23,468 nt of DNA. Origin: a virus. The position numbers and the translations under genes are program-made. The notes under the pieces are model-generated. The model saw only the letters and a program-made list of their open reading frames with translations. It was not told the DNA's origin and made no database searches. The stretch is from the IMG/VR virus record IMGVR_UViG_3300029448_000453, positions 1 through 23,468 of that record; one strand, written 5' to 3'. The number at the start of each line of letters is the position of its first letter. Positions within the stretch are counted from its first letter, which is position 1. Below, in pieces: positions 2,257-17,640 of this stretch.

Positions 2257-2652
2257 ATGATAACAGAAGCATCAACGAAGGCAAACAAATTACATATAAT
2301 GCACGCTGCAAAACTTATTTCTAAAATGAAATCTGGTGATGAGAGAGAACAAGCCGTTACAGAATTAGAACAGAAAGCTAAGAAAATGGGTTTTGGTAGA
2401 GATTGGATTGAAAGAACTCTTGAAAAACAAGGAGCATACGAAGAAACTATGCGTGGAAATCGAGAAGAAGCAGAAAAGATGAACAGTTATATGAACATAT
2501 TATCTTTAGATAGGACTGTAAATCTTTGGTCAGAAGCTTCGAAATCAAAAGATGAGGATTTAGAACCAGTAAAGGGAAGTAAAACTTTTACTAAAAAAAC
2601 TCAGGAAAAAGTTAAAATAAATCCTATGGAAAAGGAATACATTAAAAGATGA
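2257..2652 (+). CDS. Unidentified charged helical protein
   Basis: A 131-residue hydrophilic protein, predicted mostly helical and rich in Lys and Glu, with no Cys and no membrane segment. It begins MITEASTKANK; the I-T-E near the start would fit the (L/I)xE cleavage preference of T4 gp21 prohead protease, but the rest of a targeting sequence is missing. AAAGGG before the ATG serves as ribosome binding site. It starts two bases after the nucleotidyltransferase stop and its TGA overlaps the next ATG (ATGA), so it lies in the same translational cluster. I do not recognise the family; a packaged or scaffold-associated role is speculation from its neighbours. Confidence 0.7.
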   Translation: MITEASTKANKLHIMHAAKLISKMKSGDEREQAVTELEQKAKKMGFGRDWIERTLEKQGAYEETMRGNREEAEKMNSYMNILSLDRTVNLWSEASKSKDEDLEPVKGSKTFTKKTQEKVKINPMEKEYIKR

Positions 2653-3182
2653 AAAAGACACTAGTACAATTTCTATATGAATCTGGAATAGAGGAAAGAC
2701 TTCCTCATGTCTATTTGGATATGGATGGGGTATTGGTGAATTTGGAAAAAGGTGCATTTAAGGTACATGGTGTAAAATTAGGAGATGTACCAAAACCTGA
2801 AAGATGGGAAAAGATAAGAGATACCAAAGATTTTTGGAAAAATTTAGAATGGATGCCTGGTGCAGAAAAACTTTGGAATTTTTTAAAACCATATGAACCC
2901 AGTATCATGTCAGCATATGCTACACATGAACCAAATTCAGCAAGAGGTAAAGCTGATTGGTTAAAAACTCATGTGGGGAAATTACCTAGAGATAGAGTAA
3001 ATCTGGTCAAGAGAGCAGATAAACAAAGATTTGCAAAAGATGGAAGAACAAAACAACCAAATATACTTGTTGATGATCATCCCAAAAATATTAAAGAATG
3101 GGAAGCGAATGGCGGTATTGGAATACACCATACTAGTGTAAATAAAACAATAGCAAAACTTAAAAAGATAGGTTTTGCATAA
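2649..3182 (+). CDS. HAD-family 5'(3')-deoxyribonucleotidase-like phosphatase
   Basis: A 177-residue HAD hydrolase. Motif I is VYLDMDGVLV, with D24 as the expected nucleophile and D26 as acid/base; motif IV is ILVDDHPKNI, with the Mg-binding pair D142/D143. Conserved Lys/Arg lie between them (about 120-129). Length and motifs fit the small 5'(3')-deoxyribonucleotidase (NT5C) family, which removes phosphate from deoxynucleoside monophosphates, so the protein could adjust nucleotide pools. The extra N-terminus MKKTLVQFLYES precedes the fold and resembles the capsid-targeting-like leaders of neighbouring genes. It starts by ATGA overlap, and its stop lies within the late promoter-like CATAAATA at 3178. 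Fold assignment is firm; the exact substrate is not. Confidence 0.85.
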   Translation: MKKTLVQFLYESGIEERLPHVYLDMDGVLVNLEKGAFKVHGVKLGDVPKPERWEKIRDTKDFWKNLEWMPGAEKLWNFLKPYEPSIMSAYATHEPNSARGKADWLKTHVGKLPRDRVNLVKRADKQRFAKDGRTKQPNILVDDHPKNIKEWEANGGIGIHHTSVNKTIAKLKKIGFA

Positions 3183-3185
3183 ATA
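3178..3185 (+). promoter_or_regulatory. T4-type late promoter element CATAAATA
   Basis: CATAAATA differs from the T4 late consensus TATAAATA at one base. It overlaps the TAA stop of the preceding phosphatase gene and lies 31 bases before the next ATG. The following gene encodes a presumed virion protein, which fits late transcription. In T4 such elements are read by gp55-RNA polymerase with gp33 and the gp45 clamp; that role here is inferred. Confidence 0.55.
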
Positions 3186-3216
3186 GTAATAACAACTTAT
3201 TAATAAGGAGAACAAT

Positions 3217-3825
3217 ATGCCTTTATGGGGAAACGCTCATGCTTCAGCAACAAACAAACCCAAGTTTTTGCCGGCGGATGAAGATTCAAATTATAACCGA
3301 GCCGATTGTTATGCAACTCAAGAGGGTTGGGTAATGCAGGCTGGACATCCAAGTTCAGGAAATGGAAATACAAGTGCTGATCCAGAAGTTCTAGTTGCAA
3401 GTGGTGGACTTGCCGGTGCAACTGATACTACTGGTCTTAGAGCACCAACAGTAACATCAATGAGATTTGTTACAGCATCACTTGTTAATGGTGGAAGTAA
3501 GACCTTAACAGTTGAAATTACATGGGATGAGGGAATAACAGTTGCTGGAAGTCCACAAGTTGTGGTTGCAAATGGAAACCAATCATCTGATGGTGATGGA
3601 AATGCAACCTTAACATATACTGCAACTGGTTCAACTGCAAATAGAAAAAGATTTACTAATGCAAGTTTAACTTTTTCCACAAGTGATGTATATACATTAG
3701 GTGGAGCAAATATTACACTTAATAGTGGAACAATTTCAGATACAGTACGAGGTGGTACAGCTCAAGCCGCATCATTAGTACTTTCAGGTTTAACTGCTAA
3801 AACAAAAACTGTTGTAGCCGCATAA
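3217..3825 (+). CDS. Virion structural protein with Ig-like domain
   Basis: A 202-residue protein rich in Ala, Gly, Thr and Ser, unlike the Lys-rich genes before it. The N-terminus MPLWGNAHASATNKPKFLP followed by DEDSNYNRADCYAT is, from memory, a recurring start among marine T4-like virion proteins. From about residue 73 to the end there is a beta-rich Ig-like domain: TVEITWDEGITVAGSPQVVV, then a GDGNATLTYT strand and NSGTISDTV near the end. It would sit on the particle surface or a fibre; this is inference. A strong TAAGGAG precedes the ATG, and the late-type CATAAATA lies upstream. A hairpin pair follows the stop. Confidence 0.75.
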   Translation: MPLWGNAHASATNKPKFLPADEDSNYNRADCYATQEGWVMQAGHPSSGNGNTSADPEVLVASGGLAGATDTTGLRAPTVTSMRFVTASLVNGGSKTLTVEITWDEGITVAGSPQVVVANGNQSSDGDGNATLTYTATGSTANRKRFTNASLTFSTSDVYTLGGANITLNSGTISDTVRGGTAQAASLVLSGLTAKTKTVVAA

Positions 3826-3845
3826 TAATTATATAAAGCTAGTGG

Positions 3846-3886
3846 TCTAGAATTCCTAGAGTAGCATCCCCCCTCGAATGAGGGGG
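3846..3886 (+). terminator. Tandem hairpins between two virion genes
   Basis: Two perfect stems lie in the 86-base gap. The first is TCTAG/CTAGA with loop AATTC (3846-3860). The second, at 3869-3886, is CCCCCTC/GAGGGGG with loop GAAT, very GC-rich for this genome. The second is followed only by TTCACATT, a poor U-tract, so it may be a weak terminator or an RNA processing/stability element that sets relative levels of the two virion proteins. Confidence 0.5.
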
Positions 3887-3911
3887 TTCACATTAATTTA
3901 AAGGAGAAAAA

Positions 3912-4814
3912 ATGGCTGATAAGAAAATAACAGCGTTAACAGAACTATCCGCAACTGGAAAAGCCGGTGAGGATTTTTTACATATTATTGACTATGGTGG
4001 GGGATCTTCACCAGTTAATAAGAAAATTAGTCTTACTAATTTATTTAACAATGCAAACGTAGATACACATATCTATGGAGCTTCTAAAACTTTAGAAGTT
4101 GGTTTTGCAGCCGCAACTAATTCACATATAAAGGTAGCAACTGGTGCAAATGCCACTACCGATGGTGCAGTAACTATAAATGATGATGGAGTTGCATATG
4201 TTGATTTTGTAGTAAAATCACTTAGTTCAGATCAAGCAATCAAAGTTGATGCTGGAACTGATAAAATCATTGTTAATGGTGACGCCGCAAACGTGGATTT
4301 CACAGTTAGTGGTGATACTCAAGCAAACCTACTTCATTGTGATGCGGGTTTAGACGCAATAGGTATTGGAACAGGAACACCTGACACCGCATATTACCTT
4401 GATATTGCAGCTGTTGCTGGTAAATCTATAAAAACAGCTGGTTCTATTGATGTAACAGGAAGTATTACTGCTACTGGAAACCTTACTGTAACTGGTTTCT
4501 TAGTTTTAAATGATGCAATCGCAACAGCTATTGCTGGAGGTGCAAATGTCGGTGCCAAAGTAGAGATTCCTATTACTGATTTAGTTACACATCTTGACCC
4601 AGGCTCAAGTACTGGTCATTATGGACTTGCAAATGGTGCAGCTGGTCAAATTAAAATTGTATTTAATTCGGATGCGGCCCAAGATGCAATTATTACACCA
4701 ACTACATTTGCACAAGGTACAACATTAACATTAGATGAATTGGAATCTGCAACATTAATGTATACAACTGGTGGTTGGATAGTCTTAAATCATCCAGGCG
4801 CAGCAATTACATAA
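3912..4814 (+). CDS. Virion structural protein, fibre-like
   Basis: A 300-residue Ala/Gly/Thr-rich protein, low in Lys and Arg apart from its first 20 residues. It starts MADKKITALTELSATGKAGE, a form I associate with marine phage structural proteins. Residues about 160-200 carry a short repeated pattern (VTGSITATGNLTVTGF) typical of beta-helical fibre or tail-spike shafts, and the C-terminal third (LDELESATLMYTTGGWIVLN) looks like a compact beta head. No catalytic motif is visible. An AAAGGAG ribosome site precedes the ATG. A neck, fibre or decoration role is inferred from composition and the adjoining Ig-like virion gene. Confidence 0.75.
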   Translation: MADKKITALTELSATGKAGEDFLHIIDYGGGSSPVNKKISLTNLFNNANVDTHIYGASKTLEVGFAAATNSHIKVATGANATTDGAVTINDDGVAYVDFVVKSLSSDQAIKVDAGTDKIIVNGDAANVDFTVSGDTQANLLHCDAGLDAIGIGTGTPDTAYYLDIAAVAGKSIKTAGSIDVTGSITATGNLTVTGFLVLNDAIATAIAGGANVGAKVEIPITDLVTHLDPGSSTGHYGLANGAAGQIKIVFNSDAAQDAIITPTTFAQGTTLTLDELESATLMYTTGGWIVLNHPGAAIT

Positions 4815-4842
4815 TAATTAACTTTTATATAATGGAGAAATT

Positions 4843-5046
4843 ATGGCAATTACGATTGAATCGTTGAATGAACGGAAAACCGCCATTCAAACTGACATGG
4901 AAAAACTGAGAGATACTATCTCTCAGTTAGATAACAAACGACAAGAATTGGTCAATAACTTGAATGCTCTTTCGGGGGCATTACAACAATGTGACCAATT
5001 CATTGTCCAATTACAAGAAGAAGAAAAACCAAAGAAAGAAAAATAA
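4843..5046 (+). CDS. Small coiled-coil protein
   Basis: A 67-residue protein, almost entirely one predicted coiled coil: hydrophobic positions recur at heptad spacing from ERKTAIQTDMEKLRDTISQL through ELVNNLNALSGALQQCDQFI. A single Cys lies at about residue 50 and the tail EEEKPKKEK is highly charged. TGGAG precedes the ATG. Similar short coiled coils follow structural genes in other marine T4-like phages, from memory; none has an assigned function that I know. It could be a chaperone or oligomerisation partner of the preceding fibre-like protein. The clean ribosome site and tight spacing support real coding. Confidence 0.65.
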   Translation: MAITIESLNERKTAIQTDMEKLRDTISQLDNKRQELVNNLNALSGALQQCDQFIVQLQEEEKPKKEK

Positions 5047-5047
5047 T

Positions 5048-5485
5048 ATGAAATCATTTAAACAACATCTAACAGAACATTCTGGTGGTGTATATTTTCA
5101 ACAGTGGCAAGATCAAGACACAATGCCTTCATCTGAACACGCAATAGAAGCTTTGAATTCATATGTTGGTCAAATGGAAAATCATGAATATTTAAATCCA
5201 AAAATTGGAATTGAAATATTACAAACACAATTAGGAAAATTGGGTTATCATTTTGAATCTCCTACACTTGATGGTGGAGATGGTGAATATTCAATGCCAT
5301 TATCATATGGAAATGGTACTTTTCAGGCAGATTATGATGAGAATTCTTATGGAGAATTCAAAGAAGGTGATGGGATTTCAGACCACATAGAAGGTGGTGT
5401 TTCATTAAAAATTGAAGTAATGAAATCTGGTACTGGAAAATCAATCATGACGGCTGAAATAGTGAGGAATGCCGAACAGGGATGA
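5048..5485 (+). CDS. Unidentified protein with capsid-targeting-like N-terminus
   Basis: A 145-residue protein. I place the start at the ATG at 5048, immediately after the upstream stop, because the N-terminus MKSFKQHLTEHSGG there closely matches the T4 internal-protein leader (MKTYQEFIAE), with L-T-E fitting the gp21 cleavage rule. The frame is open further left, but that part merely shadows the coiled-coil gene. The body is acidic, without Cys, with Gly/Asp-rich turns (LDGGDGEYSMPLSYGNGTF) and a beta-like end (GGVSLKIEVMKSGTGKSIMT). No known enzymatic motif appears. A packaged internal protein is a reasonable guess. Moderately confident that it is a gene, not sure of its role. Confidence 0.65.
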   Translation: MKSFKQHLTEHSGGVYFQQWQDQDTMPSSEHAIEALNSYVGQMENHEYLNPKIGIEILQTQLGKLGYHFESPTLDGGDGEYSMPLSYGNGTFQADYDENSYGEFKEGDGISDHIEGGVSLKIEVMKSGTGKSIMTAEIVRNAEQG

Positions 5486-5491
5486 CCCCCT

Positions 5492-5854
5492 ATGTTTGAA
5501 AAATTGACCAAAGACAACATTATGATGTATGCTATACAACATTATCATAATCCGTCTTGTGAAGGTATGATTGAATTTAATGATGATATGAAACGATTTA
5601 AGTATGTTAAAAGACTCTTTCGTAAATATGAAGAATCTGGTATACTTAAAGAGCGTCTACTGTTGAATCATATTATAATATTAAACAACTTATTTGGAGC
5701 AGAAGCTTCATCTACACTTTTATTTTTTAAGACAGAACGAGAACATTGGCCCACGTTGAAGGGGTTTTTAGAATTTCTAAATATAATGCCTCAAAATGAC
5801 TTATTAGATATTAAAAGTGATGAAATAGTAAGACAAAAATTAATGGAACTATGA
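5492..5854 (+). CDS. Unidentified conserved small phage protein
   Basis: A 120-residue soluble, largely helical protein with His- and Tyr-rich N-terminus (MMYAIQHYHNPSC) and a Leu/Ile-rich middle (ERLLLNHIIILNNLFGAEAS). There is one Cys and no recognisable catalytic or binding motif. It begins six bases after the upstream stop, with AGGG about 12 bases before the ATG, and its TGA overlaps the next ATG (ATGA), indicating coupling. I believe similar proteins occur next to the following gene in other marine T4-like phages, but I cannot name the family with certainty. Function unknown. Confidence 0.65.
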   Translation: MFEKLTKDNIMMYAIQHYHNPSCEGMIEFNDDMKRFKYVKRLFRKYEESGILKERLLLNHIIILNNLFGAEASSTLLFFKTEREHWPTLKGFLEFLNIMPQNDLLDIKSDEIVRQKLMEL

Positions 5855-6429
5855 GCAGAGCAGTAGATTTATTTGTCACTTATAGATTTCTAAAATTACT
5901 GGTTACACCTTGGCACAAACAAGAAGCCTTTAAATTAGGAATCATAGATAAGGATGGTAAAGCATTAAAAAAGGCCAGAGATTTAGGTAAAGAATCAGAA
6001 AGAGCTGCATTTACTCTTTTACATAGGTTGGTATTCAATCTTAAAAGAATAATGATGAAAATCCCAGGCGTAAGAACACAATTAGGTACTTATGCAACTG
6101 CATTGTTTTTACTTAAAGAACATTATAAAATAGAAAATTTACCAGAAGGGGAAGTCACCAAATATTTACTGGAAAACAAACTAGTAGATATGAACGACAA
6201 CATATCAGAAGAAGTTATTGGTTTTGGTAGTATGTTACCTATGGGTGAATATAAACTCAAAGACCAAGTTACTGCGGATGATGAAGAAATAGATGCACAG
6301 CCTGGAGATGTGGTATCTGCACTTGAAGATACACCACCTAGTGATCGTGTTTTAGGAGTAGATATTTTTCCAGTAATTCATCAAAAAAGTAATAAAAAAA
6401 TATACGTTTCATTGGAGGACATTAAATGA
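5851..6429 (+). CDS. Unidentified conserved phage protein
   Basis: A 192-residue protein with two parts. Residues 1-110 are basic and helical (VTYRFLKLLVTPWHKQEAF; RVFNLKRIMMKIPGVRTQLG; YATALFLLKEHYKIE). Residues 125-192 are acidic and beta-like, ending VIHQKSNKKIYVSLEDIK. It has no Cys and no catalytic motif I recognise. The start uses an ATGA overlap with the preceding gene and its own TGA again forms ATGA with the next, so three genes are chained for coupled translation. Presumably conserved among marine T4-like phages and possibly structural, from memory only. Confidence 0.65.
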   Translation: MSRAVDLFVTYRFLKLLVTPWHKQEAFKLGIIDKDGKALKKARDLGKESERAAFTLLHRLVFNLKRIMMKIPGVRTQLGTYATALFLLKEHYKIENLPEGEVTKYLLENKLVDMNDNISEEVIGFGSMLPMGEYKLKDQVTADDEEIDAQPGDVVSALEDTPPSDRVLGVDIFPVIHQKSNKKIYVSLEDIK

Positions 6430-6800
6430 TTGAGATAATCACAGAAGATATGAGTACAGCTTCTGCTGTAGATATGAACGTAACAGGAAAACCTAAAAAG
6501 AAACGTAAGTGTGAAACCTTTAATGTTTCAGATGATTGTTTTCACAAGTTCAGACATGGAAAAACAAAGTTTGAACGATGGTCAAAGTATCTGGATATGA
6601 CAGATGCATCACAAAAGAAAATTTATGATTGGGCTAAAAGACATCACAATGGTACAATCATTCTTAAAAATTCCACAACTGGAGCGGTTAGAGGAATTCG
6701 TTATAATCGTACTGGTGGGGGCCAATGGGGCAAAATTACCAGAATAAAAGAACAAGTATTAAAAACAAATCAAGAATTCAAAGTAAAATGTCCACAGTAA
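6426..6800 (+). CDS. Unidentified basic, cysteine-containing small protein
   Basis: A 124-residue protein. The first residues MIEIITEDMSTASAV include I-T-E, fitting the prohead protease preference and echoing the leaders seen earlier in the window. Next come a basic stretch GKPKKKRKCETFNVSDDCF with two Cys, a helical middle (KFERWSKYLDMTDASQKKIY) and a Gly/Arg-rich segment (TGAVRGIRYNRTGGGQWGKI). A last Cys lies two residues from the end. The basic character suggests nucleic acid binding, but no defined domain is visible. It starts by ATGA overlap, and its 3' end overlaps the next gene by 13 bases. Confidence 0.6.
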   Translation: MIEIITEDMSTASAVDMNVTGKPKKKRKCETFNVSDDCFHKFRHGKTKFERWSKYLDMTDASQKKIYDWAKRHHNGTIILKNSTTGAVRGIRYNRTGGGQWGKITRIKEQVLKTNQEFKVKCPQ

Positions 6801-7090
6801 AGGCCGATGTCGAAGTACTTAAAGAACAAGTTGCAACTATCAAAGAAGCGTTCGATGAGCACGTTACACAAAACAGAGAAGATTTTAAAGAAGTACATTC
6901 AAGAATGAGTACCATGAAACGAGAAATTTCTGAAGAAATTAACTTGACATTTGAAAAATTGTATGATAAAATAGATGAAAATGAAAAAGATATTGGTGGA
7001 TTAGAAAAGTGGAAATGGACATTGGGGGGCGTAATGCTTGCAATGACATTTTTAATGACTTTATTTTCAACCTTTCATCACTTAAATTAA
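6788..7090 (+). CDS. Coiled-coil protein with C-terminal membrane helix, holin-like (XhlA-like)
   Basis: I start this 100-residue protein at the ATG at 6788 (MSTVKADVEVLKEQ) because the open frame further left only shadows the previous gene. Residues 1-70 form a charged coiled coil (VLKEQVATIKEAFDEHVTQN). GLEKWKWTLGGVMLAMTFLM begins a single membrane helix of about 18 residues, ending in a short FSTFHHLN tail. This layout resembles XhlA-type haemolysin/holin-associated proteins and some membrane-anchored phage proteins. It lacks an obvious partner holin next door, so a lysis role is only a proposal. The gene body contains a sigma70-like promoter at 6944-6972 pointing toward the primase. Confidence 0.65.
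   Translation: MSTVKADVEVLKEQVATIKEAFDEHVTQNREDFKEVHSRMSTMKREISEEINLTFEKLYDKIDENEKDIGGLEKWKWTLGGVMLAMTFLMTLFSTFHHLN
6944..6972 (+). promoter_or_regulatory. Sigma70-type promoter inside coiled-coil gene, toward primase cluster
   Basis: TTGACA (6944-6949), a 17-base spacer and TAAAAT (6967-6972). The extended -35 context ACTTGACATTT is the same as at 10725 and differs by one base from that at 16414. Transcription would begin near 6979, within the coding sequence, and run into the primase and ribonucleotide reductase genes. Confidence 0.5.
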
Positions 7091-7111
7091 GACTACATTA
7101 TTTAATACATT

Positions 7112-8125
7112 ATGAGCTATATTGATCAGAAGTACATAAATTTGTGTACTTCTAGGGTGGAAAAGTTTAAGAAAGTTCGCGATAACCTATGGAACTTTCG
7201 TTGCCCCATATGTGGGGATTCCAGAAAACATAAAAATAAGGCTAGAGGATTCGTATATCGCAAGAAGGCATCTTTTTTCTACAAGTGCCATAATTGTGGT
7301 GTAGGACTTACCTTTAACAACTTCCTCAAACATATAGATCATGGACTTTATACTGAGTATCGTGTAGAAAAGTATAAGGGTGGTGAAACACAAGGGAATA
7401 CTCCAATTCCTGACAAATCCCCATTTACATTTGAAGCTCCTAAGTTTGACAAATCCATGAATAAACACTTGGATAAATTGTCAAGGTTTAGTGATCTGGA
7501 AGAAGGACATCCTGCATTGTCCTATGTTGAAAATAGACAAATTCCTAAGAAACATTGGGATAAATTATATCTCGCAGATAAATTTTATGAATGGTCTAAC
7601 ACAATATTTCCAGAAAAATTTAAGAGTATAAATATAGATTATCCACGCCTTGTCATCCCTTTTTTCGACAAGTCAGGAGAAATCTTCGCTTATCAAGGAA
7701 GAGCATTTGGTAAGGAAGAACCAAGATATATCACCTTAAAAATTGTTTCGGAAAAAGAGAAGATCTATGGTCTAGAACGAATTAATTATGATTCTCATGT
7801 GTATGTCGTTGAAGGGCCTTTAGATTCACTTTTTATAGATAATTGTATCGCAGTTGCTGGAGCAGATTTGAATTTATTAGAGTTGAATACAAGTTCAACT
7901 ACTGTGATATATGATAATGAGCCTAGAAACAAACATACAGTAGAACGTATGTTCAAATCTGTTGATAAAAATTATCACGTTGTAGTTTGGCCGCAAGATT
8001 TGAAACAAAAAGACATTAATGATATGTATTTGTCAGGTATAGAAGATGTTAAATCTTTTGTTGATGTACACACATATCATGGACTAGAAGCATACTTAAA
8101 AATCAATCAATGGAAGAAAATATGA
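7112..8125 (+). CDS. 61: DNA primase, T4 gp61-like
   Basis: A 337-residue primase that makes RNA primers for lagging-strand synthesis with the gp41 helicase. The N-terminal zinc ribbon has CPICG (C31, C34) and CHNCG (C59, C62), separated by a basic segment. The TOPRIM catalytic core has VYVVEGPLDSL with Glu at 234, then VIYDNEPRN (around 266-273) and QKDINDMYLSG (299-309), the acidic metal-binding stations. Length is close to T4 gp61 (about 342). No strong Shine-Dalgarno precedes the ATG; the 21-base gap follows the coiled-coil gene. Its end overlaps the reductase start (ATGA), coupling primer and precursor synthesis. A TATAAATA at 7627 inside the gene is probably a chance result of coding. 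Confidence 0.92.
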   Translation: MSYIDQKYINLCTSRVEKFKKVRDNLWNFRCPICGDSRKHKNKARGFVYRKKASFFYKCHNCGVGLTFNNFLKHIDHGLYTEYRVEKYKGGETQGNTPIPDKSPFTFEAPKFDKSMNKHLDKLSRFSDLEEGHPALSYVENRQIPKKHWDKLYLADKFYEWSNTIFPEKFKSINIDYPRLVIPFFDKSGEIFAYQGRAFGKEEPRYITLKIVSEKEKIYGLERINYDSHVYVVEGPLDSLFIDNCIAVAGADLNLLELNTSSTTVIYDNEPRNKHTVERMFKSVDKNYHVVVWPQDLKQKDINDMYLSGIEDVKSFVDVHTYHGLEAYLKINQWKKI

Positions 8126-10095
8126 ACCCGCAAGTACAACCAGTAACAAAAACAATGTTCCCCAAAGTATTCAGTTCCCCCCTTAAAGAAGAAATTACCT
8201 CTCAAATAGATCCCTTTGAAAACGAAATGAGTAAGTTCGTGTATTACAGAACATATTCAAGATGGGATGATGGTAAAGGCCGTAGAGAGACATGGGATGA
8301 AACTGTTCAACGATGTGTAGATTACCTAAAGAAAGTTAGTAAAAGTAAACTTAAAAAATCAGATTATGAACTGATACATCAATACATTTTAGAGATGAAG
8401 GTAATGCCTTCAATGAGATTATTGTGGACTGCCGGAAAACCAGCTCACCTTAACAATGTTGCAATTTATAATTGTTCTACAGTACCTATAGATTCCCTTA
8501 GTTCATTTGCAGAAGTTTATTTTCTGTTGATGAGTGGAACAGGAGTAGGTATAGATGTATCTAAGAAATATGTAGAGAAGATACCCAAAGTAAAAAAATT
8601 GAATGGAGATAAACAGAAGATTGTATTTGATGATTCCAAAGAAGGATGGGCAATGGGAACATTGGAAGTTTGTCAAGCTATGTGGGAAGGATGCGATGTA
8701 GAATGGGATTTATCTAAACTTAGACCACAAGGTGCAAGACTTAAAACTTTTGGTGGAAGGTCATCTGGGCCAGGGCCACTAGATGAGACTTTACATTTCA
8801 TCAAACATATGATTGAAGCTCATAGAGACAGAAAGTTGAGTTCCATAAATGCATTTGATATTGTTACTAAAATTGCAAATTCAGTAGTTGTTGGTGGAGT
8901 CAGAAGGTCATCCATTATTACACTTTCAGATCTTCATGATAACGGAATGAGAGATGCTAAACAAGGTCAATTTTGGGTTACTAATGCACACCGAGCTATG
9001 AGTAACAATAGTGCAATTTATGATTCCAAACCAAATTCAATAGAATTCATGAAAGAGTGGTTAGCACTTGCAGAAAGTGGTACAGGAGAACGTGGTATAT
9101 TTAATCGTTATTCTATCAATAGTCTAATACCAAAACGCAGGCGCAAGAGACAAGATTGGACTACTAACCCATGTGGTGAAATAATATTACGTCCTAGAGG
9201 GTTCTGTAACCTTACAGAAGTGGTTATTCGTGCAGAAGATACACTTGAGACATTAATGGAGAAGATCAAAGTTGCAACTCTAATTGGTACAATACAATCA
9301 ACAATGACAGATTTTGCACTTCTAGATGACTTGCATGAGGATTGGAAAAAGAACGCAGAAGAAGAAAGACTTCTAGGTGTTTCTATGACAGGACAAATGG
9401 ACAATCCAGATATATTGACTCCTGAGAATTTACAAGCTCTTAGAGACTATTCTGTGGGAGTAAACGTAGAAGCTGCAGAACGATTAAAAATAAACAGATC
9501 AGTAGCCATTACAACCACAAAACCTAGTGGTACAGTATCAACTCTGGTAAATTCTGCATCTGGTTTTCATCCAAGATTTGCACCTCATTATATACGAAGG
9601 GTGCGAATATCTGCTACAGATCCATTATTTAAAATGATGAGAGATCAAGGTGTAAAGTTTTTACCAGAAGTAGGACAACCAGAAGAAACTGCAATGACAT
9701 GGGTGTGTGAATTTCCAGTAAAAGCACCAGAAAATTCTGTCATGGTAAAAGATGTTGATGCAATTTCTCAGTTAAAACAATGGTTAAAGATAAAACATAA
9801 TTACACAGAACATACAGTATCAGCAACAATATATGTCAAGCCAGATGAATGGTTAGAAGTTGGACATTTTGTTTACGAAAACTTTGACGATTTAGTGGGG
9901 GTGAGTTTCTTACCTAAAGATGACCACATCTATCAACTTGCCCCTTACGAAGAAATTGACGAAAAAACTTATGATGAAATGCTTGCAAATTTCCCAATTA
10001 TTGATTATTCTGAACTTTCTAAATATGAAACGGAGGATAATACTACAGGAGCGCAAACAGTTGCGTGCTCTGGTGACAGTTGTGAAATCATTTAA
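8122..10095 (+). CDS. nrdJ: Class II (adenosylcobalamin-dependent) ribonucleotide reductase
   Basis: A 657-residue single-chain reductase converting ribonucleotides to deoxyribonucleotides. I choose the ATG at 8122 (ATGA overlap with the primase, GGAAG at proper distance) over the ATG at 8110. Key residues are C118 (YNCSTVP) and the loop motif NPCGE with C351 and E353. A partner Cys at 362 (GFCNL) lies 11 residues later, the same spacing as C408/C419 in Lactobacillus leichmannii RTPR. The C-terminal CSGDSC (C-X4-C) is the expected thiol shuttle. No small-subunit (class I) or glycyl-radical partner lies beside it. The protein is shorter than RTPR (739) but matches compact class II enzymes. It depends on host or scavenged B12. 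Confidence 0.93.
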   Translation: MNPQVQPVTKTMFPKVFSSPLKEEITSQIDPFENEMSKFVYYRTYSRWDDGKGRRETWDETVQRCVDYLKKVSKSKLKKSDYELIHQYILEMKVMPSMRLLWTAGKPAHLNNVAIYNCSTVPIDSLSSFAEVYFLLMSGTGVGIDVSKKYVEKIPKVKKLNGDKQKIVFDDSKEGWAMGTLEVCQAMWEGCDVEWDLSKLRPQGARLKTFGGRSSGPGPLDETLHFIKHMIEAHRDRKLSSINAFDIVTKIANSVVVGGVRRSSIITLSDLHDNGMRDAKQGQFWVTNAHRAMSNNSAIYDSKPNSIEFMKEWLALAESGTGERGIFNRYSINSLIPKRRRKRQDWTTNPCGEIILRPRGFCNLTEVVIRAEDTLETLMEKIKVATLIGTIQSTMTDFALLDDLHEDWKKNAEEERLLGVSMTGQMDNPDILTPENLQALRDYSVGVNVEAAERLKINRSVAITTTKPSGTVSTLVNSASGFHPRFAPHYIRRVRISATDPLFKMMRDQGVKFLPEVGQPEETAMTWVCEFPVKAPENSVMVKDVDAISQLKQWLKIKHNYTEHTVSATIYVKPDEWLEVGHFVYENFDDLVGVSFLPKDDHIYQLAPYEEIDEKTYDEMLANFPIIDYSELSKYETEDNTTGAQTVACSGDSCEII

Positions 10096-10104
10096 TAGCA
10101 AGTT

Positions 10105-10275
10105 ATGGCAGAAAATTTAGAAATAGATTGCAAGGATTGCAACGCGACATACAATTTGAAACATAATCTGAATGTCGCAAGATACGAAATAGGATTTTGT
10201 CCTTTCTGTGGATCAGAAGATATTGATATAGAAGATGATTATTATGATGATGAAGATGAGGAAGATTATTTTTGA
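10105..10275 (+). CDS. Small zinc-ribbon protein with acidic tail
   Basis: A 56-residue protein between the reductase and the SegE-like gene. It has two CxxC pairs: CKDC (9-12) and CPFC (32-35), separated by about 20 residues including NLKHNLNVARYEIG, a classical zinc ribbon. The last 18 residues are almost wholly Asp, Glu and Tyr. The acidic tail could mimic DNA or bind a basic partner; this is inference. It begins nine bases after the reductase stop, and its own TGA is part of TTGACA and abuts CATAAATA. Similar short ribbons are common in marine T4-like genomes. The paired cysteines and tight packing argue that it is real despite its size. Confidence 0.75.
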   Translation: MAENLEIDCKDCNATYNLKHNLNVARYEIGFCPFCGSEDIDIEDDYYDDEDEEDYF

Positions 10276-10283
10276 CATAAATA
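10272..10283 (+). promoter_or_regulatory. Late promoter element CATAAATA with overlapping TTGACA
   Basis: CATAAATA at 10276-10283 matches the element at 3178 and is one base from T4 TATAAATA. It directly follows the TGA stop of the zinc-ribbon gene; that TGA also lies in TTGACA (10272-10277), for which I find no good -10 at 16-18 bases. The late element is therefore the better reading. The SegE-like gene starts 18 bases after it, with GTGGAG as ribosome site. Confidence 0.45.
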
Positions 10284-10301
10284 TTCTAAAGTGGAGTATT
10301 T

Positions 10302-10730
10302 ATGAGTTACGAAAATCCTTGGCTATACGATGGTGTAGCATTTGAAAGTGAAGATATAGAAGATTATTTTGGTTTTTGTTATCTTTTGACAGACCTTGAG
10401 AATGAAAAAATGTATATTGGTAGAAAATACTTCTACCAGAACCGAAAGAAAAAAGGTCAGAGAAAAAGAGTACGTTCAGAGAGCGATTGGAAAACCTATT
10501 ACAGTTCATCTAAAAAAGTTAAACATTTAGTACAAGAATTTGGGGGAGCCAGATTCAAGAGAGAAATACTTGGTCTTTGGAAAAAGAAAGGTCAGGTAAA
10601 TTATAATGAAACTAAATTGTTATTCAACCACAATGTTTTAGAAGAAATGAATGATAATGGCGAAAAGTTGTATTACAACGACAATATTATGAACAGATAT
10701 TTTTCAACATTAATGGAAGAAAAGACTTGA
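10302..10730 (+). CDS. SegE-like GIY-YIG family putative homing endonuclease
   Basis: A 142-residue protein with a divergent GIY-YIG core. GFCYLLTDLENEKMYIGRKY (residues 24-43) carries the two beta-strand signatures (here FCY and YIG) with catalytic-type Arg in GRK. It is followed by a Lys/Arg-rich segment (RKKKGQRKRVRSESDWKTYY), FKREILGLWK and a C-terminal helical region ending YYNDNIMNRYFSTL. The pattern matches the family of T4 SegE-related endonucleases found in many cyanophages and pelagiphages, from memory. It would cut DNA and might spread itself into related phages or help degrade DNA. Its stop TGA forms part of the -35 of the next promoter. The family call is good; actual homing activity is unproven. 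Confidence 0.8.
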   Translation: MSYENPWLYDGVAFESEDIEDYFGFCYLLTDLENEKMYIGRKYFYQNRKKKGQRKRVRSESDWKTYYSSSKKVKHLVQEFGGARFKREILGLWKKKGQVNYNETKLLFNHNVLEEMNDNGEKLYYNDNIMNRYFSTLMEEKT

Positions 10731-10755
10731 CATTTCATTTTTATAATGTTATACT
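10727..10755 (+). promoter_or_regulatory. Sigma70-type promoter, nearly leaderless, for gene at 10766
   Basis: TTGACA (10727-10732) with a 17-base spacer and TATACT (10750-10755). The TGA stop of the SegE-like gene is embedded in the -35. Start of transcription is expected near 10762, only about four bases before the ATG at 10766, so the mRNA would be almost leaderless. The context AAAAGACTTGACATTT is nearly repeated at the gp33 promoter. Confidence 0.65.
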
Positions 10756-10765
10756 ATAAGGGAAA

Positions 10766-11041
10766 ATGATTAAAAGACTTAAAGAGTTAAAAAGTCTTAT
10801 TGATAATGGTTCAGTACCAACCATACATGAAAATGCTAAAATAGATTCTGAAGAATATTCCTATATGGATCTTATAGCGTTGGATTATGGATTTGTCCAA
10901 GACCTTTATATTGGTAGTGGAAATTTTGAAAAGTGGTTTACATATACTGGGCCCGAACCGATCAAAATCAATGATCTTACTTTACATCCAAATGAGATGA
11001 TTGAGTTTGTGGTAACTCAAATTTATGATGGCATATTATGA
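10766..11041 (+). CDS. Unidentified small acidic protein, probably early
   Basis: A 91-residue protein: a basic helical start (MIKRLKELKSLIDNG), then an acidic, Tyr-rich body (DSEEYSYMDLIALDYGFVQD) and a beta-like end (INDLTLHPNEMIEFVVTQIY). No Cys and no known motif. It lies immediately behind a good sigma70-type promoter, so host polymerase should express it early, possibly from a leaderless message; AAGGG would otherwise be its ribosome site. The TGA overlaps the following ATG (ATGA). Small early phage proteins often alter host functions, but nothing in the sequence shows a target. Confidence 0.7.
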   Translation: MIKRLKELKSLIDNGSVPTIHENAKIDSEEYSYMDLIALDYGFVQDLYIGSGNFEKWFTYTGPEPIKINDLTLHPNEMIEFVVTQIYDGIL

Positions 11042-11493
11042 GAAAGAAACTGAGTGAAGAACGAAAACAACAACTGCGTGACCAGTTAGACGTTGCACGA
11101 AAGAAAAAAGCACCAGCGGAATACAAGAACGTATATCCGTCTGTATTAGCAAAACCAGATGATGATCCTTTGTCGTTGAAATCTATTAAGAAAGCGATTA
11201 AACATAACAAGGATAAAGCATCTGCATATCTTACCAATTCCCGCAGGAGAGGTGCATCTCCAAAACAATCCATTGCAGATAAAATTAATGCCGATAGTGC
11301 AAAAGCATATATTCGGTTTATGGAACATTACCTCAGAACAGGGGATTGGATTTCTGATTTTATGGGTGATGATGAGGAAAAGAAAACTCAATGGAAATGT
11401 ATTGCAATGGCCTATAATCCAGATGGTACACCTAAACGATCTAAAGGTGTTTACTATCCAGATATTAACATGGTATGGGGTGAAGTAGTATGA
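11038..11493 (+). CDS. Unidentified conserved basic phage protein
   Basis: A 151-residue protein. The N-terminal 30 residues are a highly charged helix (MRKKLSEERKQQLRDQLDVA). A central region follows with KHNKDKASAYLTNSRRRG, a helix INADSAKAYIRFMEHYLRTG, and an aromatic C-terminus (GVYYPDINMVWGEVV). There are many basic residues and a single Cys. It is joined to both neighbours by ATGA overlaps (11038 and 11490), which places it in one coupled unit with RNase H. I recall similar proteins beside T4-like replication genes in marine phages, without known function. Nucleic acid binding would fit the charge but is not shown. Confidence 0.7.
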   Translation: MRKKLSEERKQQLRDQLDVARKKKAPAEYKNVYPSVLAKPDDDPLSLKSIKKAIKHNKDKASAYLTNSRRRGASPKQSIADKINADSAKAYIRFMEHYLRTGDWISDFMGDDEEKKTQWKCIAMAYNPDGTPKRSKGVYYPDINMVWGEVV

Positions 11494-12332
11494 TATTAAT
11501 TGATTTGAGTCAAATAATGGTGGCATCTACAATGATGTCAATGGGTAAAGAACAATCAGAAGTTGACATTGATATGGTTCGACATATGATTCTGAATAGT
11601 CTCAGAATGTATCGGTCAAAATATCATCCAGAATATGGTGAATTGGTCTTATGTTGTGATGGTAGGCACTCATGGAGAAGGGAACATTTTCCTCAATACA
11701 AGGCAGCTAGAAAGTCTAGTCGTGATGCAGATAAAAGGAATTGGACACAAATCTTTGGTTGTCTTGATACCATCAAATCAGAACTTAAAGAGTTCTTTCC
11801 ATACAAGTATATACAGATTGATGAGTCAGAAGCTGATGACATTATAGGAGTTCTTGCAAGAAATGCAGGAACAGAAAAGGTAATGATAATTTCTGGTGAT
11901 AAGGATTTTATACAACTACAAGTACACAAAAACGTAAAACAATACAGCCCTATCACCAAGAAATTAATAACAGATAAAAATCCAGCAAAGTATTTAAGAG
12001 AACATATTTTGCGAGGTGATACCTCAGATGGTGTTCCTAATTTTCTATCATCTGATAATTGTATTATAGATAAGATTAGACAAACACCATTGTCTAAGAA
12101 AAAGATAGAAGCTTGGTTATACCAAGATCCAGAAGATTTTTGTAATGATGAACAGTTGAGAAATTATCATAGAAATTTGAAACTGATTGATTTACAATTT
12201 ACACCATTAAACATAATAGACCAAGTGGTTGAACAGTTTAATGTAGAACCAAAAGGTAAAAGAAGTGGACTTTTGAATTATTTTATCGAAAGGAAACTCA
12301 ATAATTTAATACAAGACATAGGAGAATTTTAA
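11490..12332 (+). CDS. rnh: RNase H / 5'-3' flap exonuclease, T4 Rnh-like
   Basis: A 280-residue FEN-superfamily nuclease that removes RNA primers from Okazaki fragments, working with gp32. Metal-binding acids appear in the expected order: D5 (ILIDLSQ), D57 (LCCDGRHSWRREHFPQYKA), the ESEADD cluster at 112-117, D137 and D139 in SGDKDF, and D177 and D180 in GDTSDGVPN. The arch-region HSWRREHFPQYKAAR is characteristic. The helix-hairpin-helix part after GVPN is followed by a C-terminal domain like T4 RNase H. The start is an ATGA overlap with the previous gene. Length is close to T4 Rnh (305). Confidence 0.9.
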   Translation: MILIDLSQIMVASTMMSMGKEQSEVDIDMVRHMILNSLRMYRSKYHPEYGELVLCCDGRHSWRREHFPQYKAARKSSRDADKRNWTQIFGCLDTIKSELKEFFPYKYIQIDESEADDIIGVLARNAGTEKVMIISGDKDFIQLQVHKNVKQYSPITKKLITDKNPAKYLREHILRGDTSDGVPNFLSSDNCIIDKIRQTPLSKKKIEAWLYQDPEDFCNDEQLRNYHRNLKLIDLQFTPLNIIDQVVEQFNVEPKGKRSGLLNYFIERKLNNLIQDIGEF

Positions 12333-12333
12333 T

Positions 12334-12948
12334 ATGGCACAACCAGTAATTGAAGGTGGAGTTGGAGTAGGTAGTTATAGTACCGATGCCGGTGCAAAAC
12401 TTACTTCAGAACCAAACCCTAGTATCAAAGTTAGAAAACCACTATTGAGTGAAATTCTTGATAGAGTACATAAGGCAAAAAACAAAGGAGATATGATTAA
12501 AATCTTACAAGAAGAAAATTGTGAACCATTGCAACAGATATTGCAATGGGCATATAATCCTACAATAGCTTCAGATTTGCCTTCTGGAAAACCACCATAT
12601 GTTGAAAATGAAGCTCCAGAAGGTACAGAACATACGTTATTGAGAACTGAGGCAAATGGTCTTTGGCATTTTGTTAAAATCTTAGTATCTGAAAAAAAGG
12701 ATGAAAATAATAAAATAGTAAGAACTTATAGATCAGCTGACCCAAATACACAACAAACAGTTAGAGAACGTATGTTTATCAGACTGTTAGAGGGATTACA
12801 TAAGAATGAGGCTAATTTATTATGTGCTATAAAAGATGGTAATTTACCATATAATCCAAAAACGAAGGAGGGGATTAAAGGATTATCCGTACCTATATTG
12901 CAGGAAGCCTTTAATTGGGATGAGAACTTCAAGAAGAAAGATGTATAA
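12334..12948 (+). CDS. Conserved T4-like marine phage protein (DUF6433-like)
   Basis: A 204-residue protein. After a disordered Gly-rich start (MAQPVIEGGVGVGSYSTD) comes the conserved block KPLLSEILDRVHKAKNKGDM, then an all-helical body containing APEGTEHTLLRTEANGLWHF, a charged insert and RERMFIRLLEGLHKNEANLL, ending LSVPILQEAFNWDENF. I believe this pattern corresponds to the DUF6433 family of cyanophage and pelagiphage proteins, whose role is unknown. Its position between RNase H and the late region suggests a replication or late-transcription partner, but that is guesswork. AGGAG precedes the ATG. The TAA lies within TATAAATA. Confidence 0.75.
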   Translation: MAQPVIEGGVGVGSYSTDAGAKLTSEPNPSIKVRKPLLSEILDRVHKAKNKGDMIKILQEENCEPLQQILQWAYNPTIASDLPSGKPPYVENEAPEGTEHTLLRTEANGLWHFVKILVSEKKDENNKIVRTYRSADPNTQQTVRERMFIRLLEGLHKNEANLLCAIKDGNLPYNPKTKEGIKGLSVPILQEAFNWDENFKKKDV

Positions 12949-12951
12949 ATA
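12944..12951 (+). promoter_or_regulatory. Perfect T4 late promoter TATAAATA before wall hydrolase
   Basis: TATAAATA matches the T4 late consensus at all eight positions and overlaps the TAA stop of the upstream gene. Transcription would start at about 12957-12960 and lead, after a roughly 190-base leader, into the secreted SleB-type hydrolase, a gene expected to be late. Confidence 0.65.
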
Positions 12952-12956
12952 TAATA

Positions 12957-13150
12957 CAATCTTTTTATAGGGAGTCCAAGATATGCAAATCCGAAACGGA
13001 ATGTGTGTAGAAGATAACCTAATATCTTCCCTCACATAAATTCCCCTTTATATAATTTAGAGTTTAGCCGTTTAACGATCTGCGGTTATTATTATTTCTA
13101 TGATGTCCTATATCAAAAAAAAGATTGAAGATCATATTAAAGAAGGTAAT
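12957..13150 (+). promoter_or_regulatory. Long structured leader of wall hydrolase gene
   Basis: This interval is unusually long for the window. It holds a perfect hairpin GAAGATA/TATCTTC with a 6-base loop (13010-13029), a second weaker one AGCCG/CGGTT with a 12-base loop (13066-13087) followed by T-rich sequence, and a tiny ORF at 12983-13039 (18 residues, MQIRNGMCVEDNLISSLT) behind GGGAG. An in-frame upstream ATG lies at 13100. It could be an attenuator, a riboregulator or a small RNA; which one is not decidable here. Confidence 0.4.
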
Positions 13151-13726
13151 ATGAAGAAACTGTTTATTCCAGTTGTTTTATTTTTGTTAATGGTACTTCC
13201 ATTAGGGAGTACTCAAAATAGTGCTAAAGCTGTTAAGATTGCAACAAGTTCACATGATAAAAATGTGTGGACATATGAATCATATCAAGAAGTTTTAGGT
13301 GATAGAGAAAAACAACACGAATGTCTTGCAAAGAATATATATTTCGAGGCTCGAAATGAACCATTTGTAGGACAATTTGCAGTAGCACTTGTAACTCTTA
13401 ATAGGGTACATGACTCTGCATTCCCTAATACCATATGTGATGTGGTATATGAGGGAATACATACAGCAAGTGGTTTTCCAAAACGAGATAGATGCCAATT
13501 CAGTTGGTATTGCGATGGAAACTCAGATGAAGTTCGTAATCAACGTGCATGGAAAGAAGTGCAAAAGACTGCGAATCTTGCAATGATTAAGTATGGTAAA
13601 ATGAAGGCCGAAGGTCTAGACTATACAGAAGGTGCAAGATTTTATCACACATTTGAGGTAAGTCCACGATGGTCAAAAGTTTATCCAGTAGTTGGAAGAA
13701 TTGGAGATCATATCTTTTATAGATAG
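13151..13726 (+). CDS. Secreted cell-wall hydrolase, SleB/CwlJ family (candidate endolysin)
   Basis: I choose the ATG at 13151 because AGAAGG precedes it and the product (191 residues) then begins with a signal peptide: MKK, hydrophobic core LFIPVVLFLLMVLPL, and a likely signal peptidase site after NSAKA. An in-frame ATG at 13100 would add 17 charged residues. The rest matches the SleB hydrolase domain: CLAKNIYFEARNEP with the presumed catalytic E66, VALVTLNRV, FPNTICDVVYEG, CQFSWYCDG (115-123), GARFYHTFEV and the end GDHIFYR. It would cleave peptidoglycan in the periplasm, reached by the Sec route without a large holin. A perfect late promoter lies upstream. M15 peptidase downstream may act with it. 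Confidence 0.85.
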   Translation: MKKLFIPVVLFLLMVLPLGSTQNSAKAVKIATSSHDKNVWTYESYQEVLGDREKQHECLAKNIYFEARNEPFVGQFAVALVTLNRVHDSAFPNTICDVVYEGIHTASGFPKRDRCQFSWYCDGNSDEVRNQRAWKEVQKTANLAMIKYGKMKAEGLDYTEGARFYHTFEVSPRWSKVYPVVGRIGDHIFYR

Positions 13727-14925: not shown

Positions 14926-15245
14926 TGTTACCAATGCTACTATTTAACGTAGTTTCTAGTCTTGTTGTAGACAAGGCTCAGGATCTAGCGAAAGAGCACG
15001 TTGAGAAGATGTTAGATGATATTCTTCCAGATGATGCAAAAGAAGAATTAGATGAATTAATTAAAAGTGACCCTGCACATAAATTTGAAAGTGCAACAGA
15101 AGCACTTCAAGGTGCAATAGAAGGTAAACTTCCAATATCCTTAAAGGATGGAACATTGAAACCAGTTGAATTAAGTTTTAAGGTTACATATGACCCAAAC
15201 TCTGGAAAAGTGGATATTGTACAAGATAGTGATGGAGTACTATAA
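14925..15245 (+). CDS. Unidentified small protein between phoH and M15 peptidase
   Basis: A 106-residue protein with a mildly hydrophobic N-terminus (MLPMLLFNVVSSLVVD), an acidic helical middle (EKMLDDILPDDAKEELDELI) and a beta-like end (ELSFKVTYDPNSGKVDIVQD). The first 16 residues could be a weak membrane or amphipathic anchor, too short and polar for a confident transmembrane call. It is chained by TAATG overlaps at both ends, so its amount should follow PhoH and the peptidase. Its place beside a peptidoglycan peptidase allows a lysis accessory role, but there is no direct sign of one. Confidence 0.65.
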   Translation: MLPMLLFNVVSSLVVDKAQDLAKEHVEKMLDDILPDDAKEELDELIKSDPAHKFESATEALQGAIEGKLPISLKDGTLKPVELSFKVTYDPNSGKVDIVQDSDGVL

Positions 15246-15721
15246 TGTCTGAGACAATAAGAGTATCAAAGAATTTTGCACTCTCAGAAATGGTTAAGAG
15301 TGCAACAGCAGAAAGATTGGGTGTAGACAATTCACCTAGTGATATACACCTTGTAAATTTAACACATCTTGCAATTCATATTTTACAACCAGTAAGAGAT
15401 CAGTTTGGAGTAATTACAATCAATTCAGGCTATAGAAGTCCTACATTAAATGCAAAGGTTGGAGGATCAAAAACAAGTCAACATTGCAATGGCCAGGCAG
15501 CCGATTTTGAATCGTTTTCTACACCAAATCCTGACCTTGCAAAATGGATTGCAAATAATTTAGAATTTGACCAGCTCATTTTAGAGTTTTACGATGGTGT
15601 CAATCCTAATAGTGGATGGGTACATTGCAGTTACAACCTAATGGGCAATCGTAAGAAAATCATGACTGCACTAAAAACTAAAAGTGGAGTCCAATATAAA
15701 AATGGATTTGTGAGTAAATAA
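15245..15721 (+). CDS. Peptidase M15-family D,D-carboxypeptidase/endopeptidase
   Basis: A 158-residue zinc peptidase of the M15_3 (VanY/DacY-related) type that cuts peptide bonds in peptidoglycan. SGYRSPTLNAKVGGSKTSQH (61-80) contains the SGYRS signature and the first zinc ligand H80. CNGQAADFES supplies D87, and GWVHCSY supplies H127. The N-terminal FALSEMVKSATA is the usual leading helix. There is no signal peptide, so unlike the SleB-type protein it would need a holin or act from the virion. It begins by a TAATG overlap. It may be an endolysin, or a tail-associated or internal peptidase; enzyme family confident, role less so. Confidence 0.88.
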   Translation: MSETIRVSKNFALSEMVKSATAERLGVDNSPSDIHLVNLTHLAIHILQPVRDQFGVITINSGYRSPTLNAKVGGSKTSQHCNGQAADFESFSTPNPDLAKWIANNLEFDQLILEFYDGVNPNSGWVHCSYNLMGNRKKIMTALKTKSGVQYKNGFVSK

Positions 15722-17298: not shown

Positions 17299-17435
17299 TT
17301 CGGGAAAACGATTTTCTAAAACATAAAATGAGAGATTTGCAGAAGTATATTCGTAAGTTAGAATATGATAATGCACTCTTACAACGTAAACAACAGAGTA
17401 ATTATGCGAGGAGAAATAGACACAGACAAGCTTGA
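17244..17435 (+). CDS. Small basic coiled-coil protein overlapping gp59 end
   Basis: A 63-residue ORF that begins inside the last 55 bases of gp59 and runs into the following gap. TAGGG lies before its ATG. After a basic start (MQGNTKRQGRKHRSPEDLI) there is a leucine-zipper-like helix (FLKHKMRDLQKYIRKLEYDN) and a basic end (ARRNRHRQA). The heptad pattern and ribosome site favour a true gene that might bind DNA or RNA near gp32. There is no known family. The overlap and small size keep confidence moderate. Confidence 0.5.
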   Translation: MQGNTKRQGRKHRSPEDLIRENDFLKHKMRDLQKYIRKLEYDNALLQRKQQSNYARRNRHRQA

Positions 17436-17580
17436 ACTTGTATACTGTTCTAAGTGTGCATACAAGCTCATGGTCAGAGGTGTAGGTAGTTATGCCTCTG
17501 ATAACATAATTCACTTAGGGTGGATTATATTATGTCACAGACTTCACCATTTCTTTAAGGGTGAAGGATTTCGTGACTAA
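17404..17580 (+). CDS. Small Cys/His-containing ORF before gp32
   Basis: From the ATG at 17404 this gives 58 residues: a charged start (MRGEIDTDKLELVY), CSKC at 15-18, and later LCHRLHHF with one Cys and three His, which could complete a zinc site. It overlaps the preceding small ORF by 32 bases, and its TAA is covered by the late-type ACTAAATA at 17576, the same stop/promoter arrangement found after clear genes in this window. Ribosome site is weak. It may be a real zinc-binding peptide, or only the open sequence before the gp32 leader. Confidence 0.4.
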   Translation: MRGEIDTDKLELVYCSKCAYKLMVRGVGSYASDNIIHLGWIILCHRLHHFFKGEGFRD

Positions 17581-17583
17581 ATA
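17576..17583 (+). promoter_or_regulatory. Late promoter element ACTAAATA before gp32
   Basis: ACTAAATA is identical to the octamer in front of the minus-strand tail operon (23350-23357), and the shared match extends to GACTAAATA. CTAAATA-type late elements are described for cyanophages. In T4, gp32 is also transcribed late, so a late promoter here is consistent. The gp32 ATG lies 58 bases after the element. Confidence 0.5.
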
Positions 17584-17587
17584 GTGA

Positions 17588-17611
17588 TAATACGTTAATA
17601 CGCTAATATAA
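17588..17611 (+). repeat. Triple 8-bp repeat in gp32 leader
   Basis: TAATACGT, TAATACGC and TAATATAA follow one another with a period of exactly eight bases, between the late element and the gp32 ribosome site (AAGGAG at 17629-17634). T4 gp32 represses its own translation by binding an unstructured A/U-rich repeat region of its leader, so this may be the equivalent operator. No strong pseudoknot is evident by eye. Confidence 0.4.
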
Positions 17612-17640
17612 ACAAACAATACTATAATAAGGAGTAAATT

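Follow-up and report, generated by a model that had tools for sequence, protein, structure and literature searches.

The locus raises the question of what the 202 bases between the end of the DUF6433 gene (12948) and the start of the Hydrolase_2 endolysin gene (13151) are for. The window, meaning the whole stretch of DNA analysed, is a 23,468-base virus record with T4-type gene content, including a late promoter regulator family, a helicase loader, SSB, RNase H, PhoH and an M15-type endolysin. Among the 31 + strand genes as delimited, the gaps are at most 86 nt, apart from the leader (202 nt) and positions 17436-17640 (205 nt); the remark in an earlier note on this DNA that the other gaps are short holds with that one exception. 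The N-terminal segment of the hydrolase resembles a signal peptide, as judged by eye. An endolysin that carries such a segment may need no holin to get out of the cytoplasm, and the moment of its action may consequently have to be fixed when it is made. Some 1.5 kb further downstream there is a second endolysin-family gene, Peptidase_M15_3 (phrog_894, 15245-15721), which has no intergenic leader in front of it.

The elements from which the earlier note had started, namely the late promoter box TATAAATA, an 18-codon frame behind GGGAG and an in-frame ATG at 13100, are all present in the sequence as described (Table 1). The box is perfect, but on its own it is no commoner than chance, with 3 occurrences observed against 3.2 expected. 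Its weight as a promoter derives from being kept in place rather than from rarity: in the 65 relatives described below, TATAAATA occupies this position in 55, CATAAATA or TCTAAATA in nine and another box in one. In T4 late promoters the first base of the box is numbered -13 (according to the available text of PMC2988020). Applied to TATAAATA, this numbering places +1 near 12957, where the pairing of helix P1 begins, and not directly ahead of 13151. By this analogy the late transcript is predicted to start with the first base of P1 or with one adjoining it. The hydrolase ATG is preceded by the Shine-Dalgarno (SD) sequence AGAAGG. A conserved start-codon hairpin at the hydrolase was considered and given little weight, the starts of other genes in the window looking alike.

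Table 1. Features of the leader and its flanking genes, in window coordinates
Feature	Position	Strand	Basis or remark
DUF6433 gene (PF20025, phrog_461), upstream flank	12334..12948	+	family match
T4-type late promoter box TATAAATA	12944..12951	+	overlaps the stop of the DUF6433 gene
P1, 5' strand	12957..12964	+	96.1% of cells paired; begins at the predicted +1
P2, 5' strand, holding the SD of the upstream frame (uORF)	12967..12977	+	87-88% paired within groups
GGGAG, SD of the uORF	12970..12974	+	sequence
uORF, 18 codons and TAA (stop 13037-13039), MQIRNGMCVEDNLISSLT	12983..13039	+	ATG 12983 behind GGGAG
First hairpin of the earlier note, inside the uORF	13010..13029	+	fold of the window and many single folds
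Hairpin P4, loop GUUUAACGAUCUG	13066..13087	+	99.2% of cells paired
Pseudoknot, 5' strand GATCT in the P4 loop	13077..13081	+	100% paired
P2, 3' strand	13101..13111	+	pairs with 12967-12977; overlaps ATGs 13100 and 13103
P1, 3' strand	13120..13127	+	comparison of 42 sequences
Pseudoknot, 3' strand AGATC	13129..13133	+	pairs with 13077-13081
Candidate start-codon hairpin CATATTA-AAGAAGG-TAATATG	13133..13153	+	putative; hydrolase SD in the loop, AUG in the stem
Hydrolase_2 (SleB-like) endolysin (PF07486, phrog_938)	13151..13726	+	family match

The structured leader (12957-13133) is common to 65 other IMG/VR contigs, all of one T4-like marine clade. Among the matches listed by a scan with the hydrolase were five close relatives, 58-81% identical, and the DNA upstream of their genes is remarkably similar. 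A DNA pattern built on the uORF start (TAGGGAGTC, a gap, ATGCAAA) matched 112 stretches, with the whole leader in 62 contigs. A covariance model built from 42 distinct leaders, R1, recognised these and in addition L272, L398 and L399, which stand outside the model and were obtained with patterns lacking the SD; one of these patterns, AACGATCYGC...GRTCA...ATGA, gave mostly chance hits among the matches listed, yet yielded L272. The figure of 65 leaves out the duplicates L088 (identical to L003), L090 (L002) and L081 (L004) as well as the partial L186 and L400. The same gene, DUF6433, precedes the leader in 63 of the 65 contigs, the other two being too short on that side, and both flanking genes are found in 61 (two contigs are short upstream and two downstream). 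The nine leader-bearing contigs that were searched whole contain one copy each.

Beyond this clade no credible copy of the leader was found in the material searched. When R1 was run on 75 other Hydrolase_2 loci (L006-L080, some of which, e.g. L017 and L075, have almost no upstream DNA) and two phage loci, only the window fell below E 0.2; the R1 runs left out loci L308-L386. The model found no leader in the Mosig, Melnitz-3 and C48C1 records or in 11 further virus records, and nothing credible in 18 of at least 118 stretches from a scan of genome contigs (best E 0.96). A motif inspection of the loci from L394 onward gave no further leader among the matches listed, and a second match in L131 (14.5 bits) was taken as chance. 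When the leader was compared by BLASTN with 50,697 phage records, the only matches were 27-31 nt long, with E 0.2 or worse. Comparison with Rfam gave no match at E <= 1 for the whole window or for the leaders L272, L399, L004 and L096; for positions 12700-13400 at E <= 5, only RF02756 appeared (E 2.3), inside the hydrolase gene and far below the cut-off. A known Rfam family, riboswitches included, was ruled out by this lack of a credible covariance-model match, and no tRNA or tmRNA was found. No paper describing the leader was recognised in a search of the full-text literature (few subscription journals; titles and starts of abstracts). As far as searched, the leader is restricted to one uncultured T4-like clade.

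Within the clade, the leader is better conserved than the third codon positions of the hydrolase gene beside it. Twelve representatives were named for this comparison, of which 11 have a long enough hydrolase frame (L087 was left out). The finding that would have told against the earlier proposal, hairpins with neither covariation nor conservation, was not obtained: P4 and the pseudoknot covary, and leader identity exceeds hydrolase third-codon-position identity in 55 of 55 pairs (0.85 against 0.56 for the window and L003, 0.70 against 0.49 for the window and L004, and 0.89 against 0.84 in the narrowest case, L001 and L096). The 200-nt leader has a predicted folding energy of -41.6 kcal/mol, whereas its shuffles average -30.9 (z -2.8), and one of 200 shuffles was as good. 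Taking P1, P4 and the pseudoknot together over 42 distinct sequences, 98.1% of the cells are paired, compared with 88.9% after shuffling and 34-51% with slid partners; none of 500 shuffles reached the observed value.

These values have to be read with the way in which the sequences were collected. The extraction pattern of alignment A1 required TA[CG]A[AG]TCTT, TAGGGAGTC, ATGCAAA, AACGATC and G[AG]TCA, and the invariance of those bases in A1 is therefore partly by construction: most of the P1 5' strand is fixed, and so, largely, are four of the five pseudoknot pairs. The pattern placed no constraint on the P4 stems, on the 3' strand of P1 or on the last pseudoknot pair. It is in these free positions that exchanges are observed. 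In the P4 stem (13066-13071 with 13082-13087), one pair is C-G in 23 sequences and G-C in 19, a second is A-U, U-A or G-U (23, 15 and 4) and a third is C-G or U-A (38 and 4); the last pseudoknot pair covaries as well (U-A 23, C-G 18, U-G 1). Most of the compensatory changes set two groups apart. Those of the pseudoknot and the C-G/G-C exchange of P4 seem to map to the split of the two main groups, and on the tree of leaders only two same-branch double changes keep a pair. Leaders that fail the pattern and match R1 (L118, L141 and L398 in group alignment A5, L126 in A6) were included only in the group alignments, and the pseudoknot is 100% paired in both. Of the two hairpins placed here by the earlier note, the second, which is P4, is conserved with compensatory changes, whereas the first is not: RNAalifold includes it in the consensus of neither group, and it was ruled out as a conserved element. 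Beside the pseudoknot bases, the P4 loop (13070-13083 in the window) keeps GUU.AAC in 42 of 42 A1 rows, which no helix found explains; the pattern required AAC and left GUU free.

Judged from these comparisons, the leader is a real, selected RNA with a pseudoknot. In the comparison the pseudoknot, with four of its five pairs largely fixed by the pattern, is present upstream of the hydrolase's own ribosome site, and the distance from its end to the hydrolase AUG is nearly constant (17 nt in 60 of the 65 relatives, 16 in four and 18 in one).

The second long-range helix, P2, carries the SD of the uORF in its 5' strand. Tested against mononucleotide shuffles of the 3' strand, its pairing energy is better at <0.05 for 27 of the 35 distinct leaders, with a mean z of -2.46; the other eight fall short of that level. 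Within groups, variation lies almost solely on the 3' side, because the first pattern fixed the 5' side; between groups, the 3' strand diverges strongly (GATGTCCTAT, GGACTACTTAT, GTTCCCTAT). The leaders obtained without the SD motif retain counterparts of it (GGGGAG in L272, GGAG in L398 and GGAAG in L399). For L272 and L399 the duplex test gave 0.53 and 0.33 as cut, above the <0.05 level, and inspection by eye indicates that in both P1 and P2 form one nearly continuous helix that includes the SDs. The predicted long-range pairing, with the statistics of 27 out of 35 leaders, would hide the ribosome site of the uORF, and the start site of this frame is probably concealed by the fold of the leader.

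The uORF itself is 16, 18 or 20 codons long in the relatives read. No internal stop occurs in 35 distinct valid ORFs (47 sequences; the mis-cut row L141 was not counted among them, and the frame of L399 was read by eye), while the other two frames over the same stretch contain 38 and 30 stops, totals that include L141. With at least 46 and at least 30 substitutions in the two groups, and stop-making shares of 3.9% and 5.6%, about 3.5 stops are expected in the uORF against none found, a chance of about 0.03 by our own arithmetic. Recombination of alignment columns produced in-frame stops in 0.8% of the group A and 21.8% of the group B sequences; group A alone is consequently little evidence for the frame, since its recombined columns rarely give stops. 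At the level of the peptide no constraint was detected in either group, with no third-position bias and with synonymous/nonsynonymous single-step codon differences of 203/439 (A) and 103/230 (B). A conserved leader peptide of the arrest or attenuating type was ruled out on these grounds, the frame being open without peptide-level constraint. The lack of third-position bias suggests that translation, rather than the peptide, would be kept.

The start of the uORF, with TAGGGAGTC, a short gap and ATGCAAA, also opens genes in nine loci of other contigs (L082, L084, L086, L092, L102, L106, L138, L148 and L160, some near-identical). We take these to be gp23-like major capsid genes, a name given from their sequence by eye. 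No gp23 was found in eight leader-bearing contigs, all fragments, and no long ATGCA[AG] frame was found in the Mosig and Melnitz gp23 loci.

Taking these features together, our preferred reading, to which we assign a probability of roughly 0.55, is that the leader is a cis-acting, pseudoknot-locked RNA switch that controls how the exported lysis hydrolase is translated. Judged from sequence, control of hydrolase synthesis in cis is likely, and the suggestion of the earlier note that lysis is tuned through the leader is partly supported. The comparison supports P1 and P2 as joining the 5' end, including the SD of the uORF, to the stretch just before the hydrolase ribosome-binding site, and the P4 loop as pairing with the bases that directly follow P1, so that it can lock this closed form 17 nt before the hydrolase AUG. 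Since the uORF SD lies inside P2, binding of a ribosome to the uORF would be incompatible with the closed fold, as the anatomy of the leader suggests. In newly made RNA, or where the uORF is readily loaded, the leader would be open and hydrolase translation low; when loading of the uORF falls or folding is completed, the pseudoknot would lock the closed form, with the hydrolase start in a translatable state.

The sign of such a switch is a guess based on predicted folds: provided that the switch exists, we lean slightly toward the closed form being ON. The lean is only slight because the prediction that frees the AUG also covers the SD. With the pseudoknot bases blocked, in ViennaRNA predictions that do not model the pseudoknot itself, accessibility of the hydrolase AUG rises from 0.21 to 0.47 in the window, from 0.07 to 0.55 in L170 and from 0.01 to 0.35 in L132, while that of the hydrolase SD falls from 0.70 to 0.34, from 0.94 to 0.53 and from 0.99 to 0.73, respectively. 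It is chiefly leaders with an upstream-pairing AUG that show the gain at the AUG. Overall, the folds predict a largely paired hydrolase AUG (mean unpaired 0.04); in most leaders its predicted partner is the gene's own coding sequence, regardless of the state of the leader. Occlusion of the AUG is also widespread among the genes of the window. A more specific form of the switch, which we consider unlikely, is that the uORF acts as a decoy, with a start like that of the gp23-like genes of other marine T4-like contigs, and that its loading keeps the leader open during vigorous late translation; falling loading at the end of infection would then allow the pseudoknot-locked form, from which the exported endolysin is translated. 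If this were true, the time of lysis would depend on how well translation is running and not on a holin clock.

Several other explanations of the same features have to be weighed against the switch. The 5'-terminal helix and the compact fold might mainly protect the late mRNA from decay, with the uORF as a bystander; P1 does begin at the predicted +1, and other marine Hydrolase_2 leaders (L009/L030, L010/L023 and L072) show, by eye, an inverted repeat joining the 5' end to the bases before the SD. Protection from decay nevertheless leaves the pairing of the uORF SD, the open frame and the fixed distance to the AUG unexplained, and we regard it as unlikely, ranking it above the decoy form of the switch and above all the other alternatives. 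A riboswitch or protein operator, in which a ligand or phage protein at the P4 loop and pseudoknot sets hydrolase translation and the uORF is incidental, ranks below both and is improbable as well. It would account for the strongly conserved P4 loop and for a pseudoknot adjoining the ribosome site, and a glutamine riboswitch is reported in the Melnitz and Mosig phages (available part of PMC9004378); however, the three Rfam scans gave no credible match, and the open uORF frame and its hidden SD would go unexplained. Less probable again is processing or termination of the leader into a separate small late RNA acting in trans, a possibility that the earlier note had also raised. The compact fold from the predicted +1 to 13133 would suit such an RNA, as would GUU.AAC in the P4 loop, kept without a helix behind it (its AAC pattern-required), but the leader stands only before one gene and within 16-18 nt of its AUG, an arrangement needless for action in trans.

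More doubtful still is a timing device like that of T4 gene e, in which RNA reading through from upstream would pair its pre-promoter sequence with the P1 5' strand, late transcripts being free of this arm. In several leaders, L149, L093 and L091 among them, a hairpin extends across the promoter box and encloses the predicted late start; against this, only 8 of 33 distinct leaders beat their shuffles at <0.05 (mean z -1.17), and several have no such hairpin. This device could act together with the switch, with which it is compatible. The remaining alternative, which we consider very improbable, concerns the protein: the earlier note had seen in the upstream ATG a dual start recalling lambda holin, giving a longer hydrolase with altered export. 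The reading frame does bear out the extension of 17 residues from 13100 (and of 16 from 13103, both ATGs being in frame with 13151), an in-frame upstream ATG in an open frame is present in 24 of 49 distinct relatives, and in several of these the extension reads as 17 residues, e.g. MFPILIIEIEDHEEQGY. It is absent, however, from the other 25, and two conserved in-frame starts of the lambda-holin type were ruled out by this near-even division. No SD was seen in the 21 nt before 13100 or 13103 in the window, where both ATGs overlap the predicted P2 3' strand, and helices P2 and P1 together with the pseudoknot explain this segment.

The switch has functional parallels in known systems. The start of T4 gene e (lysozyme) is hidden in the structure of an early read-through RNA, and inhibitory leader hairpins also occur at soc, 49 and I-TevI (as described in the accessible text of PMC3014915). 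The present locus shares with gene e a T4-type phage, a lysis enzyme and a late promoter beside an RNA structure, here a predicted one, that restricts access to a translation start. In gene e, according to the same text of PMC3014915, the helix lies at the gene's own start in the early read-through RNA and the late RNA lacks the 5' part, whereas in the present leader some 180 nt inside the predicted late transcript would form a pseudoknotted domain and hide the start of a uORF. The gene 32 leader of T4 and RB69 likewise has a pseudoknot upstream of a phage ribosome-binding site, where it is bound by the gene's own product (PMC3014915, in the part available). Its topology differs from that of the present leader. 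To our knowledge, no RNA binding has been described for a Hydrolase_2 enzyme.

As in hok/mok/Sok (PMC8309996) and the uORF-gated type I toxin mRNAs (PMC11228461), both as presented in the available sections, a lethal product would stand behind a uORF whose ribosome site is controlled. Sok binds at the mok SD, and refolding follows 3'-end processing (PMC8309996, same sections). The uORF of the leader differs in not overlapping the gene that follows it, the hydrolase. The timP mRNA also has a conserved structure that hides a start, and a pseudoknot in one of its two mutually exclusive conformations is needed for translation; it differs in encoding a bacterial toxin with an antitoxin RNA, and no role of a uORF appears in the available part of the source (PMC11228461). 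By analogy, the gene 32 pseudoknot, hok/mok and timP may be regarded as functional parallels of the leader. The glutamine riboswitch of Melnitz and Mosig is similar in being RNA-level control in related marine T4-like phages that is proposed to bear on lysis (PMC9004378, in the part available), and dissimilar in that the present leader has no Rfam match and that the Mosig and Melnitz-3 records yield no match to R1. The leader adds a structured RNA with a pseudoknot and a predicted hidden uORF start, for which Rfam release 15 gave no credible match, and it offers a testable case of RNA-level lysis control in a clade found here only among uncultured marine contigs.

Three minor observations concern the surroundings of the leader and of comparable genes. 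In the window, a read-through hairpin at 12935-12966 could capture the P1 5' strand, the window's own value in the shuffling test being 0.15. The Hydrolase_2 genes of L009, L030, L010, L023 and L072 lie 52-75 nt behind a late-type box. A 58-aa frame (17404-17577), without a match among phage records, may span much of the other long gap of the window (17436-17640), which lies before the SSB gene and itself has a predicted fold of -56 kcal/mol (z -4.0).
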